This document shows positions 4,418-53,953 of a DNA stretch of 64,000 nucleotides, piece after piece. Positions within the stretch are counted from its first letter, which is position 1. Each line of letters starts with the position of its first letter. The translations under genes and the position numbers were made by a program. The notes under the pieces are model-generated. The model was not told where the DNA came from and made no database searches. It saw only the letters and a list, made by a program, of their open reading frames with translations. This DNA comes from Thermoanaerobaculia bacterium (GTDB taxonomy: Bacteria > Acidobacteriota > Thermoanaerobaculia > Gp7-AA8): positions 62,001 through 126,000 of the forward strand of contig JADGNZ010000007.1 of assembly GCA_017883205.1 (NCBI GenBank), written 5' to 3'.

Positions 4418-6243
4418 CGGGAGCTGGCCGCGGCGGCCACGCGCGCGCGAAGCTCGCCCTCGAGCTGGTAGAGAACACTCGGATCGAAACGCGCGGCCGT
4501 GGCGAGATCGGATACGGCGAGGTCCGTCTGTCCGAGGTGGAGTCTGACGAGACCGCGGTTCACGTAGATCTCCGGCCGGTCATCGATGCGCAAGGCATTC
4601 GTGTAGGTTGCCGCTGCCTCGGTCCAGCGCCCCAGGATCTCGCAGTTGGTGCCGTAGAGCAGGTACCAGGCCGGATCAAGCCGGCGTCCGCTGGCCGCTT
4701 GATCGAGATCGTGCAGATTCGTATGGGCGATCTCGGTGGCGCGCCGGTCGTCGAGCGACTGCGCGAGCAGCGACCGCGCCGTAACCTCCCGCAGGATGAG
4801 ATTCCCGCGGTATGGAGCGACACATAGCTGATCGATAGCGTAGCCGGCAGCGACGAGCGCGGCCGTCCGTAGAAGCAATGCTGCGACGAGGCTCTGCGCC
4901 AGCCGGGACGGATGCTCTCTCACGGAGTGCAGCGGCCGATCGTCACTGCTCCATGTTACGCAGAGCGCTCCAAGCGTGAGGATGACCAGCCGCGGCGCCG
5001 CGATCTCGAGCGGAAATTGGGCGAGGCAGATCACGAATAATGCCGTCGCTAGCGGCCAGCGGAACGCTCGCGCAAACGTTGCTTCCGGCGATGACGCGCC
5101 GGCACGCGCGCGCCGTCGTCCAACGATTCCGCTGCCGATACCGATCGCCAGGAGGAAGAGCGCGTATCCCGGCAACCCAGTCTCGGCTGCCACCTGCAGG
5201 TGATCGTTGTGAACCTCGCCCCAATTCATGGCGAAGCCGTGCAACCACGGATCGGGATACCGGCCGCGCAGCCCGACGCGGTAGGCCATGTAGTGATACT
5301 TGAAACAGCCCGGTCCGACTCCGACGAGCGGATGATCGCGTGCCATATCGAGCGCGGAGAGAAACGGAGGCAGACGCTCGGAGAAAAGATGCTGATAGTC
5401 GCGATGCGCCACCGCCTCGGCAAGCTCGCGAACTCCTCGGCCCATCGAAGTCGACGGAGAAAGAATCACCAGCGCGAGCAGGATGATGATCGCGCCAACG
5501 ACCATCGCGGCACGCCGGGAGTGGCTGAGCGCGAAGACGATCAGCGCGGCCAGGAGCGCCCCGAGGGCGGTGCGCGTGCCGCTGGCGGCGATTCCGGCCA
5601 CGAGCACGATTCCCACTCCCGTGTAGATCCATCGCCGAAGTCCGCGCGCGGTCACGGCAATCACGATGGCAGCGATAGCCGGGACGACGAGATAGGTTCC
5701 GACGTCGTTTGCGTTTCCGAGCAGCGCGACGCTGCCGTAGTGCGTGGCCGTTTCGGGCGACGAAGGAAACGGCGTCCAGATCTTCAGCTCCTGCAGGATG
5801 ACGAGGATCGCATTCGCGCAGCACGCGATCATCAGCACATCGACGGCGATCAATGTCGCCGCCTGCGCGGCCATGCACGTGGCGATGAAGATGACCGCCG
5901 CCGCCAGAATCGTGATCAGGCTGTCGATGCTCAGAGCTCGATTCGTCGAAGTGGCTGTAGTGACCAGGCACCAGACGACGACTGCAGCCGTGAGCAGAAA
6001 CTCAGGACGCCGTGCGAACGTCCACGTGCGCCGCCGCGACGTCAGCCAGAACACGGCCAGCATCACCAGCACGATCGCCTCGCCGCGAAAAATCAGCTCC
6101 TTCGGCAGCCGGAAGGTATCCAACCCACTGCCCAGAATCACCGGCACAACGAGTAGGCCCGCCGCGAGGACGGCGAAGATCGCCCGCTCGGCAAAGGCGA
6201 GTCGCTGTTTCGCCGTCCGGCTTTCTTGCTCGATGGTCGTCAC
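4414..6243 (-). CDS. O-antigen ligase/polymerase-like membrane protein with C-terminal TPR
   Basis: The start is GTG at 6243, with a GAAGAG ribosome site 8 bp upstream. An ATG further upstream at 6465 would add 74 residues of low-quality sequence running into the divergent promoter region. The 609-aa product has about ten hydrophobic segments. A large periplasmic loop carries the Wzy_C signature HPLVGVGPGCF and, later, EVHNDHLQVAAETGLPG. After the last helix, about 110 residues form TPR-like helices. Family members polymerise or ligate undecaprenyl-linked glycans. The neighbouring sugar transferase and GT4 suggest polymerase duty in this operon; ligase activity is equally possible. Confidence 0.83.
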   Translation of the reverse strand: MTTIEQESRTAKQRLAFAERAIFAVLAAGLLVVPVILGSGLDTFRLPKELIFRGEAIVLVMLAVFWLTSRRRTWTFARRPEFLLTAAVVVWCLVTTATSTNRALSIDSLITILAAAVIFIATCMAAQAATLIAVDVLMIACCANAILVILQELKIWTPFPSSPETATHYGSVALLGNANDVGTYLVVPAIAAIVIAVTARGLRRWIYTGVGIVLVAGIAASGTRTALGALLAALIVFALSHSRRAAMVVGAIIILLALVILSPSTSMGRGVRELAEAVAHRDYQHLFSERLPPFLSALDMARDHPLVGVGPGCFKYHYMAYRVGLRGRYPDPWLHGFAMNWGEVHNDHLQVAAETGLPGYALFLLAIGIGSGIVGRRRARAGASSPEATFARAFRWPLATALFVICLAQFPLEIAAPRLVILTLGALCVTWSSDDRPLHSVREHPSRLAQSLVAALLLRTAALVAAGYAIDQLCVAPYRGNLILREVTARSLLAQSLDDRRATEIAHTNLHDLDQAASGRRLDPAWYLLYGTNCEILGRWTEAAATYTNALRIDDRPEIYVNRGLVRLHLGQTDLAVSDLATAARFDPSVLYQLEGELRARVAAAASSR

Positions 6244-7059: not shown

Positions 7060-7490
7060 CACCCCGTCCGGCTCGCAGTGCGCGCCGCCCGGCTGACAGT
7101 GCACGCCGCCCGGCTGACAGTGCACGCCGTCCGGCTGACAGTGCGCGCCGTCCGGCTGACAGTGCACGCCGTCCGGCTGACAGTGCACGCCATCCGGCTG
7201 ACAGTGCGCGCCGTCCGGCTGACAGTGCACGCCGCCCGGCTCACGGTGCACGCCGTCCGGCTGACAGTGCACGCCGTCCGGCTGACAGTGCACGCCGCCC
7301 GGCTGACAGTGCACGCCGTCCGGCTGACAGTGCGCGCCGTCCGGCTGACAGTGCGCGCCGTCCGGCTGACAGTGCGCGCCGCCCGGCTGACAGTGCACGC
7401 CGTCCGGCTGACAGTGCACGCCGTCCGGCTGACAGTACACGCCGCCCGGCTCACAGTGCACGCCGTCGGGCTCACGGTGCACGCCGCCCC
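7060..7490. repeat. Tandem array of twenty 21-bp units (array 1)
   Basis: Twenty contiguous 21-bp units run from 7060 to 7479, followed by half a unit. The unit contains GGCTGACAGTGCAC preceded by GCCGTCC or GCCGCCC. Units differ by only one to three bases (T/C, A/G, GACAG/CACGG). There are no spacers, so this is not a CRISPR. Because 21 is a multiple of 3, long open frames on both strands arise automatically. I treat them as non-coding: they have no ribosome site of their own and encode only a heptapeptide repeat. Confidence 0.95.
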
Positions 7491-7964
7491 ATCCCTACGA
7501 CCACCGCGAGTCGAGCATCCGGCGCCTGTGCGAGACCCCCTCGCCTCTATCGACGGATGCAATCCACCGAGCCGGACCACCGGACAGACAAACCGGAGGA
7601 ACGCTTCCTCAGGGGAATCCCAGTTCCGCAGCAGCTACGTAACTGTGATCGCTTGCAGGAGGGGAACACGCGGGAGTGTGCCGGAAGAATTTTGGCGCCC
7701 GATAAAACGGCCCGCTCACGCCGCATAGTTGCATTCCTGCGTACCCGATGTGAGTGCCCAGTCGCGCGGAATGCCACGGGAAAGGGTGGAGCTCCATAAT
7801 GCGACGAAGTGCGTGCTACTATAAAAGCCATCCGCAATGAAGGCACATCGGCGTCGCGCGGCTCCTCCATCTGCTGAAGGCTGGAGTGTCGCGATCGCCC
7901 GCGGTTTTCGCTACGTGACGAGAGCGTCGTTTCGCGCGGTGCGAGACGATGAAAAGGAGAAGCG
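7491..7964. other. 474-bp stretch without a convincing gene; leader of the peptide operon
   Basis: I see no gene with family character here; short frames are not supported by ribosome sites. A TACTAT-like -10 lies at 7817-7822 (CTACTATAAAAG) without a good -35. If real, it would give a leader of about 135 nt ahead of the peptide gene at 7965. Confidence 0.4.
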
Positions 7965-8111
7965 ATGGACGTGATCAAGCAGATTTCCGATGGTTCCGAG
8001 TGGTTCGAAACGACCGAAGAGGCGACGCATTTTTCGGAGGCCGAGGTGGATCGTGCGACGATGGCCAAAGCGGCTGGCGCGCGCGACGCACAGAAGAAAA
8101 AGAAAACGTAG
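7965..8111 (+). CDS. 48-aa acidic/Lys-tailed peptide, candidate modified-peptide precursor
   Basis: ATG at 7965 is preceded by a near-perfect ribosome site (AAAAGGAGA, 7952-7960, 4-bp spacing). The product has 48 residues: an aromatic W13-F14 pair, an acidic stretch over residues 9-29, then AKAAGARDAQ and four lysines (44-47) before a final Thr. There is no Cys, signal peptide or membrane helix. The stop is 18 bp ahead of an asparagine-synthetase-like gene that is itself fused by ATGA overlap to a glycosyltransferase gene. The strong ribosome site and operon position suggest a real gene and possibly a substrate of those enzymes. I do not recognise the family. Confidence 0.62.
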   Translation: MDVIKQISDGSEWFETTEEATHFSEAEVDRATMAKAAGARDAQKKKKT

Positions 8112-8129
8112 CAACGCTCCCACGCAGGC

Positions 8130-9734
8130 ATGTTGAAGTTTCGGATCGCTCGAAGCGACCTCTCGTCGCATTGGTCCACTTCAGCGGATGGATGGCAGGC
8201 CGGCGGCAGCTCAGTCCTGCCATTCCGTAATCCCGCACTCGAATCGTTCGCCGTCACCGACGGCGAACGCACACTCCTCGTGAATCGAGAGCGAGGCACC
8301 GTCTCGCACGCGACCGCCATCACAAATGTGTCCCCCGAGGAACTGCGCGAGCTTTTTGAGGAAGCCGTTGCCTGGCCGCTCGATCACCTCACCCTTCTCC
8401 TCTCGCGGCACGAGGCCAGGCTCGAAGCACACGCCGGGAGATGGGGCACGGCGCCGCTGTATCTCTGCGAACGCGATGGCGTGTTGTACGGCGATTGGGA
8501 TGCTGCGGCGCTCTACCCGTATCTCGACGCGGCGCTCGACCCGCAGCTCGCGGCCGTGTTCCTTGCGCGTTTTGCGCAGCCGTATTCGCGCCGCACCGTG
8601 ATCGAAGGCCTGATGTGGCTTACGACAGGCGCACATGCGACGTGGAGCGCGCGCGAATCGCTTTCGCTCCATTACCCTCCGGCGGAGCCCGTACCTCGGC
8701 CGCGGCCCCTCAAGGCGGAAGCGGACGCTCCCGCGATCTTCCTCGGCATCCTCGAAGCGTCGATGCGCCGCTGGCTCGATCGCGGTCCGATCGCCGGCGC
8801 ACATCTGAGCGGCGGTCTCGATTCCGCGTTGGTCGTGGCCACCGGCGCAAGAATCGTCGACACACCGCTGCGCACCTACGGCCTGCTGATGACGCGCGAG
8901 CAGCGCGACGCGCAACAGCGCCGCCGCGACGAACTGATCGCTCGATTCGAACTGCGGGACACGGCCGTAATGGGCGAGGACTTTCTGCCGTTCGACGGCG
9001 ACGGAGCGCGCATGCGCACGCAGCGCGTCGTGCCGTGGGAAGAGATCTACCAGGAAGCCACCGACCGGCTGCTGCTGGCCGCACGCGAGGACGGCGTCAC
9101 GATGATGTTCTCGGGCATCGGTGGCGATGAGCTCTGCTATCCGCACGCGACCGAGACCACGAAAGCTGCAGACGAGTGCGGCGTTATGCCGTCGTTCCTT
9201 ACCGCGTCCGCCATCGAGCTGTTACGCGATGTGCCGGCGTCGATCGACTGCGCACCCACGGCGGCGATATCCACCTCAGCGCTCGAAGGTTTCGGCGCCA
9301 GCGCAACGCGCAATCTGCAATTCGGCCTCTGGCCGGTCTCGCCGCTGGCCACGCCGGAGCTCGTCCGTTTCTGTCGCCGCCTGCCGCGCGAATGGCGTGA
9401 TGATCGCCGCATTGCGCGCACTGCGCTGGCCCGCCTCGGCTGCTCGACCGTGGTCACGCATCCGCCGGAGGTCGATGACTTTTCTCCGATGTTCGACCGC
9501 TGCCTGATCACCGCTCGCCGTGACTTCATGCGCTCGCTCTTCGCTGAGTCGCGTCTCGCCGGCTTGGGACTGGTCGATCGCGATCGCCTGCTCAGCGCAT
9601 ACGACGCGAGTTGCGCGCAGGCCGGGAAGGAGGAGCCGGAGGCGCGATTGCCGTTCTTCGCAACGGCGCTGCTCGAGCTGACGTTGCGCTCGATCGATGC
9701 CCGGAGACCGATTGCTCCGGTGATCGCCGCATGA
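8130..9734 (+). CDS. Asparagine-synthetase-like amidotransferase without glutaminase cysteine
   Basis: The protein has 534 residues. The N-terminal third is positioned like a class II glutaminase domain but starts Met-Leu-Lys, so the nucleophile Cys2 is missing and glutamine hydrolysis is not expected. The C-terminal synthetase domain is intact: PP-loop SGGLDS at 227-232 and SGIGGDEL at 328-335, as needed to adenylate a carboxylate. This combination is known from lasso-peptide cyclases, beta-lactam synthetase-type enzymes and other ATP-dependent amide formers. Genuine AsnB in this window (51895-53712) keeps Cys2. Its neighbours, a small peptide gene upstream and a GT4 overlapping downstream, suggest peptide modification; this is inference. 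Confidence 0.8.
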   Translation: MLKFRIARSDLSSHWSTSADGWQAGGSSVLPFRNPALESFAVTDGERTLLVNRERGTVSHATAITNVSPEELRELFEEAVAWPLDHLTLLLSRHEARLEAHAGRWGTAPLYLCERDGVLYGDWDAAALYPYLDAALDPQLAAVFLARFAQPYSRRTVIEGLMWLTTGAHATWSARESLSLHYPPAEPVPRPRPLKAEADAPAIFLGILEASMRRWLDRGPIAGAHLSGGLDSALVVATGARIVDTPLRTYGLLMTREQRDAQQRRRDELIARFELRDTAVMGEDFLPFDGDGARMRTQRVVPWEEIYQEATDRLLLAAREDGVTMMFSGIGGDELCYPHATETTKAADECGVMPSFLTASAIELLRDVPASIDCAPTAAISTSALEGFGASATRNLQFGLWPVSPLATPELVRFCRRLPREWRDDRRIARTALARLGCSTVVTHPPEVDDFSPMFDRCLITARRDFMRSLFAESRLAGLGLVDRDRLLSAYDASCAQAGKEEPEARLPFFATALLELTLRSIDARRPIAPVIAA

Positions 9735-11353
9735 CGGCACCGCGGCACCTGCTGATGTACATCGATCAGAGCTCGGTGGCATCACCGGGCGAGAGCGCCG
9801 TCTACGGACGTGACGTCGCCGTGGCGAACTTTCTCCACGCATTGCGCCGCCACGGCCGTTCCTCGAGGCACAGCTTCTTCCATCATCCGGATCCCTTCGA
9901 CGGCAGCAGCGCCGCGGCCGAGTTGCTTGCGTCGCTGCCGGCCGGTGGCGCGGCGATAACGATCGAAGACGTGGCTGCGCTGAAGAGTGATTTCCACGCC
10001 TGCGATTTCGACGTCTGGCACGATGCCGACGCCGATCTGGCGCCAGCCGCGCGCTTCCGGGAGCAGTTCTCCGGCCGTCTCTATCCGATCACCGCGACCG
10101 TCCACGTGGTCAGCTATCAGGGATTGCGGCACGGCTGGATCACATGGATGCTGCTGCAACGCCTCACCGCGGCCGACGCGCTGATCGCGACGAGCATCGC
10201 CTGCCGTGACGCCCTGCGCAACGCATTCGAGCAGGTGAGCGAGGGTCTGCGCAGGCAACTTGGCTGCGAGATTCAGATGCGGGCGGACATCGCGTGCGTT
10301 CCCCTGCCGGTCGACACGGAGCGTTTCGCACCGCTCGACCGCGCGGAAGCGCGCCACGCCGCCGGCTTGCCGCGGACTGCATTCGTCATCCTTTGGATCG
10401 GACGTGTTTCCGCCCACGACAAGGCCGATCTTCTGCCGCTTTTGCGCGCGTTCCGCCGTCTCGTAGATGCGAATCCGCATCGCGAGTTGCTGCTCGTGAT
10501 CGGCGGTAGCGGAGAGGAGCGCTACCTCGCCGCGATCCGTTCCGAAGCAGCCGAGTTGGGGATCGCGGAGCGTGTGTTGCTGCGGCCGGTGCCGGTCGAA
10601 GATAGGCATTTCGTGCACGCTGCCGCGGACGTCTTCGTCTCCCCCGTCGACAACGTGCAAGAAACCCTCGGCATCACTCCCATCGAAGCGATGGCCTGCG
10701 GGGTGCCGCAGGTCGTCGCCGACTGGAGCGGCTATCGCGACACGGTCGTCGACGGCGAGACCGGCTTTCGCATCCCGACGTACTGGGGCGTCGCGGACGC
10801 GGACATCTCGCGCCGTTCCGGCCTCTATGACCGCGATGACATGATCGATCACTACCGTCTCGCACAGATGGTCGCCATCGATTCCGACGTCCTGGTGGAG
10901 CGCCTGCAGGAGTTGCTCACGAATGAGGCCCTGCGCGCTCGGATGTCCGAGGCATCGCGGGCGCGGGCAGTGCGTCTGTACAGCGGCGAAGCAGTGATCC
11001 GTGCCCACGAAGAGCTGTGGTCCGATCTGCAGCAACGCGCAGCGGGCCTGCCGTGGCGCGGCCCATACGACCGCGGATACGAGCTCCCGCAGTTCACGCG
11101 AACGTTCGCCGGCTACCCGACGCAGATGCTCACCGGCGCGGAGGTTTTCACGCTCACGGAAACCGGCGAACGTGCGCGCGCCGGCGTCTACGACTGGTCA
11201 CGTGCCCCGCTGCCGCAGCTCGCACTCTCATCCGACCTGATGCGCGAGTTGCTCGCGCGCCTCGCCGCCGGCGGCCACGCCCAGGGCGAGCGCGAGCTCG
11301 CCCACCTCCTCTGGCTCTTCAAGCACGGCTACGTGCGCCTCCAGCGGCAGTAA
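9731..11353 (+). CDS. GT4-like glycosyltransferase of the peptide/AsnB-like operon
   Basis: ATG at 9731 overlaps the stop of the AsnB-like gene (ATGA), giving a 540-aa product. The C-terminal half has the GT-B donor site: VILWIGRVSAHDKADLLPLL, LLVIGGSGEE and the E-x7-E motif ETLGITPIEAMACGVPQ. About 120 extra residues follow the GT domain. The N-terminal 200 residues contain several His/Asp-rich loops and are less conserved. No membrane segments are seen. Translational coupling to the amide-forming enzyme suggests that both act on the same substrate. The gene ends 53 bp before the tRNA-Asn fragment, so it lies just outside the island. Confidence 0.8.
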   Translation: MTAPRHLLMYIDQSSVASPGESAVYGRDVAVANFLHALRRHGRSSRHSFFHHPDPFDGSSAAAELLASLPAGGAAITIEDVAALKSDFHACDFDVWHDADADLAPAARFREQFSGRLYPITATVHVVSYQGLRHGWITWMLLQRLTAADALIATSIACRDALRNAFEQVSEGLRRQLGCEIQMRADIACVPLPVDTERFAPLDRAEARHAAGLPRTAFVILWIGRVSAHDKADLLPLLRAFRRLVDANPHRELLLVIGGSGEERYLAAIRSEAAELGIAERVLLRPVPVEDRHFVHAAADVFVSPVDNVQETLGITPIEAMACGVPQVVADWSGYRDTVVDGETGFRIPTYWGVADADISRRSGLYDRDDMIDHYRLAQMVAIDSDVLVERLQELLTNEALRARMSEASRARAVRLYSGEAVIRAHEELWSDLQQRAAGLPWRGPYDRGYELPQFTRTFAGYPTQMLTGAEVFTLTETGERARAGVYDWSRAPLPQLALSSDLMRELLARLAAGGHAQGERELAHLLWLFKHGYVRLQRQ

Positions 11354-51894: not shown

Positions 51895-53712
51895 CTACCA
51901 ATACCCCCGCTCCGCGCCGAACATCACCTCGTACACCTTGCGGGCCCAGCTTCGTTTGCCGAATTCGACGCGGCCGCCGGCTTCCTGCGTCAGCCATTCT
52001 TTGATCGGGAGCGTGAAGCCTGTCTTTCTGCGCTGTTGGACTTCGGCGGGGAGCGGCGGGCGCGCGGCGGAGGCGAGGAGTTGCTTGCCGCGCTGGCGGC
52101 GGGTGACGAGTGCGGGGGCGACTTTGCGTAAGAGGTGCGCATCGACGAGGGGGACGCGCACTTCGAGCGAGTGCGCCATCGAGGCCCAGTCCATGTCGCG
52201 GAGAAGCTGGTTGCGCAGATAGAGCGACGATTCGAGTGCGGCCACGCGCGCGAAGCCGTTGCCGGGATCGGGTGTGACGGTTTGCTCGATGAGGCGAAGG
52301 AGATCGAGGCGGGCCAGGCCTTCGCGCGCGATCTCTGCGCCGAGGAGCGAGGGGAGCTCGGAAGCGAGGAAGCGGCCGCGCTTGACTAGATAGGCGCCGG
52401 CGTAGCTTCCGCCGTAGCGGACGATCTCGCCCATCTTCGGGCTGATGTGGTGGCTTCGTTTCGCCAGCGCTGCGTTGAGGCGCTGCACGGCGTCGCCGAG
52501 CTTCGGCACGCGCGACAGCACCGAGGTCATGGGCATCCAGCGGGGTATGTCTCTGAATGATGTGTAGCCGCCGAACAGCTCGTCGCCGCCGGTGCCCGAC
52601 ATCGCTACCTTCAGGCCGAGGTCGTGCGCGGCCTTGCTGATGAAGAAGCTGTTCAGGCCATCGACGCTCGGCTGGTCCATCGCCGCGAAAATGCGCGGCA
52701 GCTCGGCGCGAAATTGCGGCAGCGTCAGCTCCTGAATGGCGTGGCGCACGCCGTACTGCTGCGCGACCATCGCTGCCAGCGGCGCTTCGTCGTTCACGCG
52801 CCCGCGGTACTCCTCGAAGCGAAGCGTCATCGTCTGCAGGTCGCTGGCGCCGCTCTCGCGCGCGAGGGCGACGACGGCGGTGGAGTCGATGCCGGCGGAG
52901 AGAAACGCGCCGACCGGTACGTCCGCGACCATGTGATAGCGAACGGATTCGAGCACCGCGTCGTGAACGATGCCGCGCCGTTGTTCTTCGCTGAAGTGGC
53001 CGCCGCGTTCGACGGCATCACGCAGCGTTGCCGCGATCGAGAAATACTGCACTGGCTCACGAACGCCGTTTGCGTCGACGTACGCATACGATCCGGCAGG
53101 CAACGCGCGGATGGCACGATACATCGTGAACGGCTCGGGCACGGTGCCGCGCAGAAAGAAGCCGGCCGCACCGGCGGGATCGAATTGCCTCGACACGTTT
53201 CCGCTCGCCGCGAGCGCGCGCACCTGCGAGGCGAGGCGGATCGTGCCGCCGTCGTCCGCGTAGTACAGCGGCTTGATGCCGTACGGATCGCGCGCCAGCA
53301 GCATGCGACGGCGCGCGCTGTCCCAGAGCGCGATGGCGAACATGCCCCGCAATTCCTCGAGCATCCGCTCCTGCTTCTCGTCGTAAAGCTGCAGCAGCAC
53401 CTCGGTGTCGGACTGCGTCGTGAAGCGGCGTCCGCGCGCTTCGAGCTGCGCGCGCAGCTCGCGGTAGTTGTAGATCTCGCCGTTGAAGACGATCGACAGC
53501 GCACCGAAGTGCATTGGCTGCGCGCCTCCGGGGGAGAGGTCGATGATGGCCAGGCGGCGATGGCCGAAGCCGACGCGGCCGTCGTCCGAAAACCAGGCAT
53601 CGCCGGCATCGGGCCCGCGGCTGTGCATGCACTCCCGTGTGGCGATCACTTCCTCACGATCGATAGCGGGAGCCGCTTCGCGATAGGCGTAGATGGCGTT
53701 GATGCCGCACAT
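51895..53712 (-). CDS. asnB: Asparagine synthase, glutamine-hydrolysing
   Basis: The start is ATG 53712 (605 aa), giving MCGINAIY with the catalytic Cys2 after Met removal. The class II glutaminase domain (RRLAIIDLSPGGAQPM, VFNGEIYNYRELR) is followed by the synthetase domain with FLSAGIDSTAVVAL and GTGGDELFGGY. The second Gly of the usual SGG loop is Ala, as in many AsnB proteins of glycan clusters. It makes asparagine from aspartate, Gln and ATP, or amidates a sugar acid if specialised. Confidence 0.93.
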   Translation of the reverse strand: MCGINAIYAYREAAPAIDREEVIATRECMHSRGPDAGDAWFSDDGRVGFGHRRLAIIDLSPGGAQPMHFGALSIVFNGEIYNYRELRAQLEARGRRFTTQSDTEVLLQLYDEKQERMLEELRGMFAIALWDSARRRMLLARDPYGIKPLYYADDGGTIRLASQVRALAASGNVSRQFDPAGAAGFFLRGTVPEPFTMYRAIRALPAGSYAYVDANGVREPVQYFSIAATLRDAVERGGHFSEEQRRGIVHDAVLESVRYHMVADVPVGAFLSAGIDSTAVVALARESGASDLQTMTLRFEEYRGRVNDEAPLAAMVAQQYGVRHAIQELTLPQFRAELPRIFAAMDQPSVDGLNSFFISKAAHDLGLKVAMSGTGGDELFGGYTSFRDIPRWMPMTSVLSRVPKLGDAVQRLNAALAKRSHHISPKMGEIVRYGGSYAGAYLVKRGRFLASELPSLLGAEIAREGLARLDLLRLIEQTVTPDPGNGFARVAALESSLYLRNQLLRDMDWASMAHSLEVRVPLVDAHLLRKVAPALVTRRQRGKQLLASAARPPLPAEVQQRRKTGFTLPIKEWLTQEAGGRVEFGKRSWARKVYEVMFGAERGYW

Positions 53713-53953
53713 GGAGGGCGAGTATACGTAGGTCGGCGCTCGGGCTAGATTCCGCAAACCCGGGCCCAGTTGCCAGCCGCCAGGCTTGGAGTTGACCGGC
53801 CCGGTAGCGCCGCATCGTGCCACCTACTCACGGCGGCCGCGCTCGTGGTCACGACGATGGGGATGGTGATGAAGGTCGCGGCACCCGCGCCACCGTCAAG
53901 GAATCATCAACATCCGCTGGTCGAGGGTTGTTCGAAGTTCAAAATCGTTGAAA

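Follow-up and report, generated by a model that had tools for sequence, protein, structure and literature searches.

Organization of the Operon

The 64,000-nucleotide stretch analyzed here (the window) comes from a Thermoanaerobaculia bacterium of the phylum Acidobacteriota (assembly GCA_017883205.1, contig JADGNZ010000007.1, positions 62,001–126,000 of the forward strand), and the present work concerns three adjoining genes on its forward strand (7965–11353) that encode a 48 aa peptide, a protein with the fold of asparagine synthetase B (AsnB) and a glycosyltransferase of family 4 (GT4). We read these genes as a small operon of the type that makes ribosomally synthesized and post-translationally modified peptides (RiPPs), in which a stand-alone AsnB-like ligase would join the side chains of Lys35 and Asp41 of the peptide as a lactam, and we place the probability of this reading at roughly 60%. 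The AsnB-like protein is labeled P0002, the genome G000 and the contig that carries the operon C82.

The ribosome-binding site (RBS) AAAAGGAGAA (7952–7961, score 6) precedes the ATG of the peptide gene at 7965. The open reading frame (ORF) that follows (7965–8111) has 48 codons and the product AAAAGGAGAAGCGATG, and its codon use and comparison with the family described below mark it as a precursor-like peptide gene (MDVIKQISDGSEWFETTEEATHFSEAEVDRATMAKAAGARDAQKKKKT, with K35-x5-D41). Codons 35–41 (8067–8087), K-A-A-G-A-R-D, make up the segment of the predicted lactam. After a spacer of 18 bp (8112–8129) comes the gene for the AsnB-fold ligase (8130–9734, 534 aa), a predicted peptide cyclase, followed by that for the GT4 (9731–11353, 540 aa), a possible tailoring enzyme; the last two genes are coupled by an ATGA overlap, with the GT4 ATG at 9731–9733 and the AsnB TGA at 9732–9734. 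This layout, including the good ribosome site and the presence of Thr32, Ala34, and Asp41 in the peptide, agrees with a first-pass annotation made from the nucleotide letters. The peptide frame scores like coding DNA: its codon score was reached by just seven of 685 wrong-frame 48-codon pieces from window genes, and 81 of 137 such pieces in the true frame scored below it. The 48 aa product has no match in Pfam or NCBIfam and, used as a query against 20 relatives, it gave nothing under E 0.07 except its own match.

The AsnB-like Enzyme

The enzyme matches PF00733 (1.1e-16) and, as the first-pass annotation had noted, it retains the ATP site and is devoid of the glutaminase cysteine. The motifs SGGLDS and GIGGDE are present at residues 227–232 and 329–334, respectively, and the protein starts MLKFRI, without Cys2. 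As the open frame (540 aa) opens just six codons before the ATG at 8130, no upstream start could restore this residue. The same is true of the wider family, where a Cys is absent from the first six residues in 51 of 51 members, which implies that there is no glutaminase activity; the family keeps SGGxDS and GxGGD and typically has a G[LI]WPVxP block.

The AlphaFold2 model of the protein has a mean predicted local distance difference test (pLDDT) score of 87.2. In a Foldseek search of this model the beta-lactam synthetase (BLS; 1.3e-15) and TsnB9 (1.4e-15) were tied at the top, followed by Escherichia coli AsnB and the carbapenam synthetase (CPS). The VIA Z score was 22.7 against TsnB9 (root mean square deviation 4.3, 468 residues aligned) and 21.0 against CPS (3.7, 406 residues), and BLS was also the top PDB sequence for the family profile (2.3e-9). 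BLS and CPS are AsnB-fold enzymes without the cysteine that form an intramolecular amide by adenylation. An AsnB fold that lacks its glutaminase and lies near BLS thus fits intramolecular amide formation.

A Small Gene Adjoins the Enzyme in its Relatives

The first-pass annotation had proposed that homologs without a small upstream gene would speak against the pairing, and the enzyme homologs were accordingly examined for such genes. The rule employed was blind to the peptide sequence: it accepted an ATG or GTG ORF of 36–70 codons with at least four bases of TAAGGAGGTGA upstream, whose stop lay between 320 bp upstream and 10 bp downstream of the enzyme start, and took the best combined start and RBS score; it was written after candidate ORFs had been viewed. 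A small gene of 36–70 aa was found by this rule at 50 of 52 loci, the window included. As controls, 208 further ORFs from the same loci with a length of 250 aa or more were treated alike, and a small ORF was found beside 67 of these (32%). Reading by hand added three loci, viz. L109, where the rule missed a peptide that is present once the enzyme start is reread, L091, whose contig holds just the end of the peptide, and L119, which brings the count to 53 of 54. The lone locus without a small gene, L117, has an enzyme that reads as truncated (457 aa, with a divergent end). These counts leave out L087, L108, L124, and L125, which have no upstream DNA or a broken gene, and not all loci are independent, as L072 and L092 share the same peptide and L097 and L122 are two copies from one strain. 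The small gene and the AsnB-like gene hence form a conserved pair, and a conserved precursor gene adjoining a modifying enzyme is the arrangement by which RiPP systems are recognized. The lysine tail, whose constancy the first-pass annotation had suggested checking, is confined to two of the 37 distinct peptides, those of the window and of the sister locus L082.

Some of the peptides merit separate description. A 39 aa peptide, MNVDELFTGDLITGVPAVEAALLDKMPGGGDNNGDHCSK, is identical at 11 Streptomyces loci; in the record of L076, this conserved peptide (5577–5696) was missed by RefSeq and a different ORF of 58 aa (5120–5296) is annotated. In another Streptomyces locus (L099) the N-terminal unit GDLIT occurs three times in tandem and the core is unchanged; this peptide gene ends 73 bp before the start of the enzyme gene (5815).

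The K-x5-D Motif and Selection on the Peptide

A Lys-x5-Asp motif is present in all 51 peptides (37 distinct) and additionally in those of L091 and L119. Among the controls it was found in three of the 67 small ORFs that satisfied the rule and in seven of 252 similarly sized ORFs from the window, a set that includes the peptide. As Lys and Asp may be less frequent in the control ORFs than in real small genes, a test with composition-matched shuffles carries more weight. For this purpose the peptides were grouped into nine clusters (single linkage at 45%; L081 and L082 chain into the actinobacterial cluster). K-x5-D is the only combination of residue pair and offset (1–15) that occurs in nine of nine clusters, the next best reaching six. 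Its shuffle probability is 0.13–0.40 per peptide, with a product of 1.7e-6 over the nine clusters; across 300 shuffles, nine clusters were never reached by any pair and offset, and eight were reached four times. The motif starts 13–18 residues from the C-terminus in 36 of the 37 distinct peptides, the exception being L078 (33 residues), where for peptides with two sites the last one was used. A Gly occupies the fourth motif position in 22 of 36.

In the window peptide the pair is K35/D41; the corresponding residues are K25/D31 in the 39 aa Streptomyces peptide and K40/D46 in the 52 aa Rhizobium peptide. The first-pass annotation had instead seen a lasso-like core, with Thr32 at leader position -2, Ala34 as core residue 1 and Asp41 at position 8; this view was not borne out, as what the relatives share is a Lys at position i and an Asp at i+6. 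The end of the peptide from L082, KGTGTEDAKSRKKKASEK, is much like that of the window, KAAGARDAQKKKKT.

The peptide is under purifying selection in three groups. The dN/dS ratio (non-synonymous to synonymous rate, Nei-Gojobori method) is 0.139 in Rhizobium (eight distinct DNAs of nine), 0.308 for the 39 aa Streptomyces peptide (12 of 19) and 0.056 for a 41 aa Streptomyces peptide (five of five). In the Rhizobium peptide, amino acid changes are confined to the first 33 residues and the last 19, EIAAMIKGGKPGDMDKLDV, show synonymous changes only, a pattern typical of a genuine gene whose core is fixed.

That the whole 39 aa peptide is identical at 11 loci is also what might be seen for a carrier or a cofactor precursor, and the small peptide could be a scaffold that the enzyme loads and from which a later enzyme releases the product, as in pathways of the peptide aminoacyl-tRNA ligase (PEARL) type. 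A later enzyme of this sort is not evident among the named neighbors, though no search was aimed at one, and a fixed K-x5-D within otherwise dissimilar peptides resembles a substrate; we regard a carrier function as improbable.

Distribution and Phylogeny of the Family

A tblastn search of plasmids gave 43 records, 38 of them with at least 80% coverage at about 27–32% identity, from Rhizobium (24), Bradyrhizobium (12), Streptomyces (3), Mesorhizobium (2), Aminobacter (1), and Xanthomonas (1); the gene context was opened for 12 of these 43. A scan of contigs with the family alignment A2 found at least 76 loci, and the same scan with P0002 alone as query found nothing. From the matches listed, 44 (L082–L125) were taken as family and L126–L157 were left out (best E 7e-8, partial). 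Among the matches listed were many from Streptomyces, other actinomycetes and Rhizobium, as well as two metagenome-assembled genomes, one of Pseudolabrys (L082, 36%) and one of the Acidobacteriaceae (L087), whose contig begins inside the enzyme gene so that the enzyme alone is visible. One viral contig, L081, has the family; phage records gave no match and PADLOC none. The pair of genes is thus conserved across at least two phyla.

Closer to the window, P0002 as query matched 42 of 148 genomes of its class (up to nine candidates scored per genome) and 105 of 396 genomes of its phylum (three per genome). Apart from its own match, we take these to be generic AsnBs: none of the matches spans the full length and most lie in frames of more than 600 aa. 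With the family profile A4 at E 1e-20, the window protein scored 575 bits and two others 75–76 bits (392 phylum genomes, three candidates each).

In a tree of 36 proteins, the 23 family members fell into a single clade (100/100) that excluded the nine lasso cyclases and the four AsnBs, and the sister of the window protein was L082 (100/99). The nine lasso cyclases were not monophyletic in this tree (two changes). For eight of them a PF13471 match is located no more than about 6 kb away (seven within 2 kb) and the ninth, L210, was assigned by profile alone. From 20 fetched regions, 13 proteins entered the tree; L193 (a fragment), L207 (a wrong ORF) and L195, L201, L203, L206, and L211 (no usable ORF) were left out.

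These results bear on whether the operon is a lasso pathway, in which the AsnB-like protein would join the N-terminus of the core, Ala34, to Asp41 with a B protein supplied from elsewhere. The enzyme is of the same superfamily, it has a weak match to NF033535 (E 2.7e-6; 26 bits against a cut-off of 525) and Asp41 lies eight residues from Ala34. However, the family forms a separate clade from the lasso cyclases, the amine partner that its peptides have in common is an internal Lys, and the lasso leader peptidase (PF13471) has no match in the genome of the window. Of the 23 PF13471 matches in 25 other genomes or records, none is inside a family locus, as judged by coordinates or contig extent, and neither PF13471 nor PF05402 occurs in six complete plasmid records with family members. 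In G000, PF05402 was found only on contigs C46 and C50, whereas the operon is on C82, where a divergent RiPP recognition element (RRE) may be encoded. The absence of an RRE/leader-peptidase (B) gene, which the first-pass annotation had recorded for this stretch, therefore extends to the whole genome for PF13471 and to the contig of the operon for PF05402. On these grounds (absent PF13471, no PF05402 on the contig, separate clade) lasso membership was rejected, and we consider it very unlikely.

Other Genes around the Pair

The neighbors of the pair were surveyed at 58 loci by tblastn (E 1e-6, up to 5.5 kb away, with part of the loci incomplete). A class I methyltransferase lies just downstream at 31 loci and a regulator of the tetratricopeptide repeat (TPR) type was found at 26, in 25 of which it is upstream and diverging. 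LuxI was found at nine loci, all from Rhizobium, and a kinase of the aminoglycoside phosphotransferase (APH) type at two, both from Mesorhizobium. The GT4 was found at the window locus alone, and the suggestion that a glycosyltransferase takes the place of the B gene does not apply across the family. In RiPP clusters a fixed pair is usually surrounded by variable tailoring genes. On pRL10 of Rhizobium johnstonii 3841 (L077, 4802–8982), the peptide/AsnB-like pair lies between an acyl homoserine lactone (AHL) synthase gene and nifH; the AsnB-like coding sequence there is just 367 aa long and appears broken.

The GT4 of the window matches PF00534 at 7.6e-23 and carries a tail of about 95 aa (residues 445–540) without a Pfam match. 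Among the 396 phylum genomes this tail had one weak match besides itself (E 0.0025, at L034), which was set aside as the surrounding locus appeared unrelated. The AlphaFold2 model of the GT4 is poor (pLDDT 52.8), and for the tail it gives no confident structure.

Other GT4-like proteins and a Wzx-like flippase (PF13440) are present near the operon, as are sugar epimerases (read by eye), and it could be supposed that the AsnB-like protein amidates a sugar acid that the GT4 transfers into an exopolysaccharide, the small ORF being incidental. Against this, the peptide gene accompanies the enzyme at 53 of 54 loci, the enzyme has no glutaminase cysteine, and the annotation of the 12 plasmid loci that were opened shows no genes for polysaccharides next to the pair. 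An exopolysaccharide function is, in our judgment, highly improbable.

Three other features of this region may be mentioned. Just upstream of the operon (7078–7530) is an apparent tandem-repeat tract with a short unit that reads TVHAVRL or CTVSRTA in the ORF translations, on both strands. Another AsnB-type protein, with the glutaminase start MCGIN, is encoded in the window on the reverse strand (51895–53823), and a further one is found on the same contig about 9 kb before the window (G000:C82:52152–53303).

Proposed Product and Mechanism

In the pathway that we propose, the 48 aa product would serve as the precursor, its N-terminal part resembling a leader and its C-terminal part forming a short core. 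After binding ATP at SGGLDS, the AsnB-like enzyme would adenylate the side-chain carboxylate of Asp41; the side-chain amine of Lys35 would then attack and AMP would leave, giving a Lys-Asp isopeptide and a ring of seven residues. As no gene for a PqqD-type RRE or a lasso leader peptidase is nearby, the enzyme probably recognizes the peptide directly. In the lineage of the window the GT4 may then add a sugar. The bond is probably between Lys and Asp, to which both the chemistry of the superfamily and the sole residue pair common to all clusters point; the order is likewise inferred, and leader removal, export and the GT4 step are guesses.

A different reaction may also be considered, in which Asp41 is converted to Asn or coupled to an outside amine, with free ammonia or a small amine as the co-substrate of the enzyme, and the Lys only positions the substrate. 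According to a 2026 preprint (PMC13060819), PesC, an asparagine synthetase (AS)-like RiPP enzyme, works with ammonia instead of glutamine, and peptide amidation is the reaction of TsrC and ScdTA. In the present family, however, the Lys is as invariant as the Asp and none of the 51 members has the N-terminal Cys of a glutaminase. Likewise, the relatives of solved structure that lack this Cys, BLS and CPS, form intramolecular amide bonds. We view amidation as unlikely, though it deserves more consideration than a lasso, carrier or exopolysaccharide function.

A number of observations weigh against a Lys-Asp lactam. The lactam is here a prediction from genes alone, and no leader peptidase or exporter was identified. 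In the window peptide K-x5-D is weak by itself (shuffle probability 0.40), because this peptide is rich in Lys, and the motif there derives its weight from the family and from the sister L082. The peptides of L075 and L079 have two K-x5-D sites and that of Rhizobium contains an additional Lys within the segment; the partner residues are therefore not always unique. The window itself is the single clear member of the family among the 392 phylum genomes, with three candidates scored in each, and its GT4 was found at one of the 58 family loci, the window alone. A Glu-Tyr dyad has been described for PesC and four related enzymes in the above preprint (PMC13060819). Within our alignment, the lysine column of the four AsnBs and most of the compared lasso cyclases is K, R, P, or V in the family (Val448 in the window), and the Tyr of the BLS motif GYGAD is not kept, being Ile330 in the window and variable across the family. 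The Tyr of GYGAD has a catalytic role in BLS. If the PesC dyad corresponds to the E and Y of GGDELFGGY in AsnB, as we assume, the Glu but not the Tyr is retained in the window family. As neither the C-terminal lysine nor the GYGAD Tyr is kept, the catalytic mechanism cannot simply be transferred.

Novelty and Significance

No NCBIfam model (June 2026) reached its cut-off for the enzymes scanned, for which Pfam gives only the broad PF00733, and the family peptides that were scanned have no match in Pfam or NCBIfam. A literature search, conducted mostly outside subscription journals, gave nothing on a Lys-Asp lactam of the AsnB type or on the peptide/enzyme pair. The 2026 preprint names lasso cyclases, TsrC, ScdTA, and PesC as AS-like RiPP enzymes and refers to about 300 AS-like enzymes near RiPP elements without a known reaction (PMC13060819). 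Peptide cyclization by AsnB-fold enzymes is already known, and there is a fair chance that the Lys-Asp chemistry would set the pair apart as a class of its own. The idea of an undescribed class of modified peptide in the first-pass annotation accordingly holds for the gene pair, which looks to be such, but not for the lasso-like core.

We give even odds to the broader proposal of a new RiPP class in Pseudomonadota, Actinomycetota, and the phylum of the window, which would be characterized by a stand-alone ligase of the AsnB fold that has no PqqD-type partner, a side-chain lactam between Lys(i) and Asp(i+6), a precursor of about 40–60 aa, lineage-specific tailoring (methyltransferase, kinase, glycosyltransferase) and, on rhizobial symbiosis plasmids, quorum-sensing control. 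If correct, it would provide a second kind of lactam for AsnB-fold RiPP enzymes and a way to Lys-Asp stapled peptides that needs a single enzyme. It would also account for a gene pair that lies near an AHL synthase gene at nine Rhizobium loci and occurs in many Streptomyces genomes. Should the family be among the approximately 300 uncharacterized AS-like enzymes mentioned in the preprint (PMC13060819), one group of these would gain a predicted reaction. Given the K-x5-D rule, two genes and mass spectrometry would suffice to test the lactam prediction.

Comparison with Known Systems

The lasso cyclases (McjC type, NF033535) resemble the window family in having an AsnB-fold enzyme, with the PP-loop kept, that adjoins a ribosomal precursor. 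These enzymes make a macrolactam with the N-terminus as the amine, whereas a Lys side chain is predicted for this role in the window family, which also differs in its separate clade, in the lack of a PF13471 partner and in size (mostly 490–570 aa, compared with 604–728 aa for the nine lasso cyclases). The macrolactam cyclases of the albusnodin/ikarugamycin family (NF033561) show a weak profile match to some members (L071, 2.3e-9), but this amounts at best to 36 bits against a cut-off of 300 bits.

The beta-lactam and carbapenam synthetases share the two-domain AsnB fold without Cys2, and BLS is the PDB sequence that best matches the family profile. However, the GYGAD Tyr and the C-terminal lysine are not kept in the window enzyme, and the substrate of these synthetases is a small molecule. 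The AS-like RiPP amidases and nitrile synthetase (TsrC, ScdTA, PesC) are similar in that an AS-like enzyme acts on a ribosomal peptide; there, the reaction is amidation or nitrilation of a C-terminal carboxylate, and PesC takes its nitrogen from glutamine or ammonia and requires a hydroxylated Asp (PMC13060819). The glutamine-dependent asparagine synthetases and amidotransferases differ from the window family in the N-terminal catalytic Cys2, which the latter lacks. Lastly, the graspetides (microviridin, plesiocin) contain side-chain lactams between Lys and Asp or Glu in a ribosomal peptide, formed by ATP-grasp ligases. A Lys-Asp side-chain lactam of this kind is what we predict for the window peptide, but the ligase of the window operon belongs to PF00733 and the operon has no ATP-grasp match.

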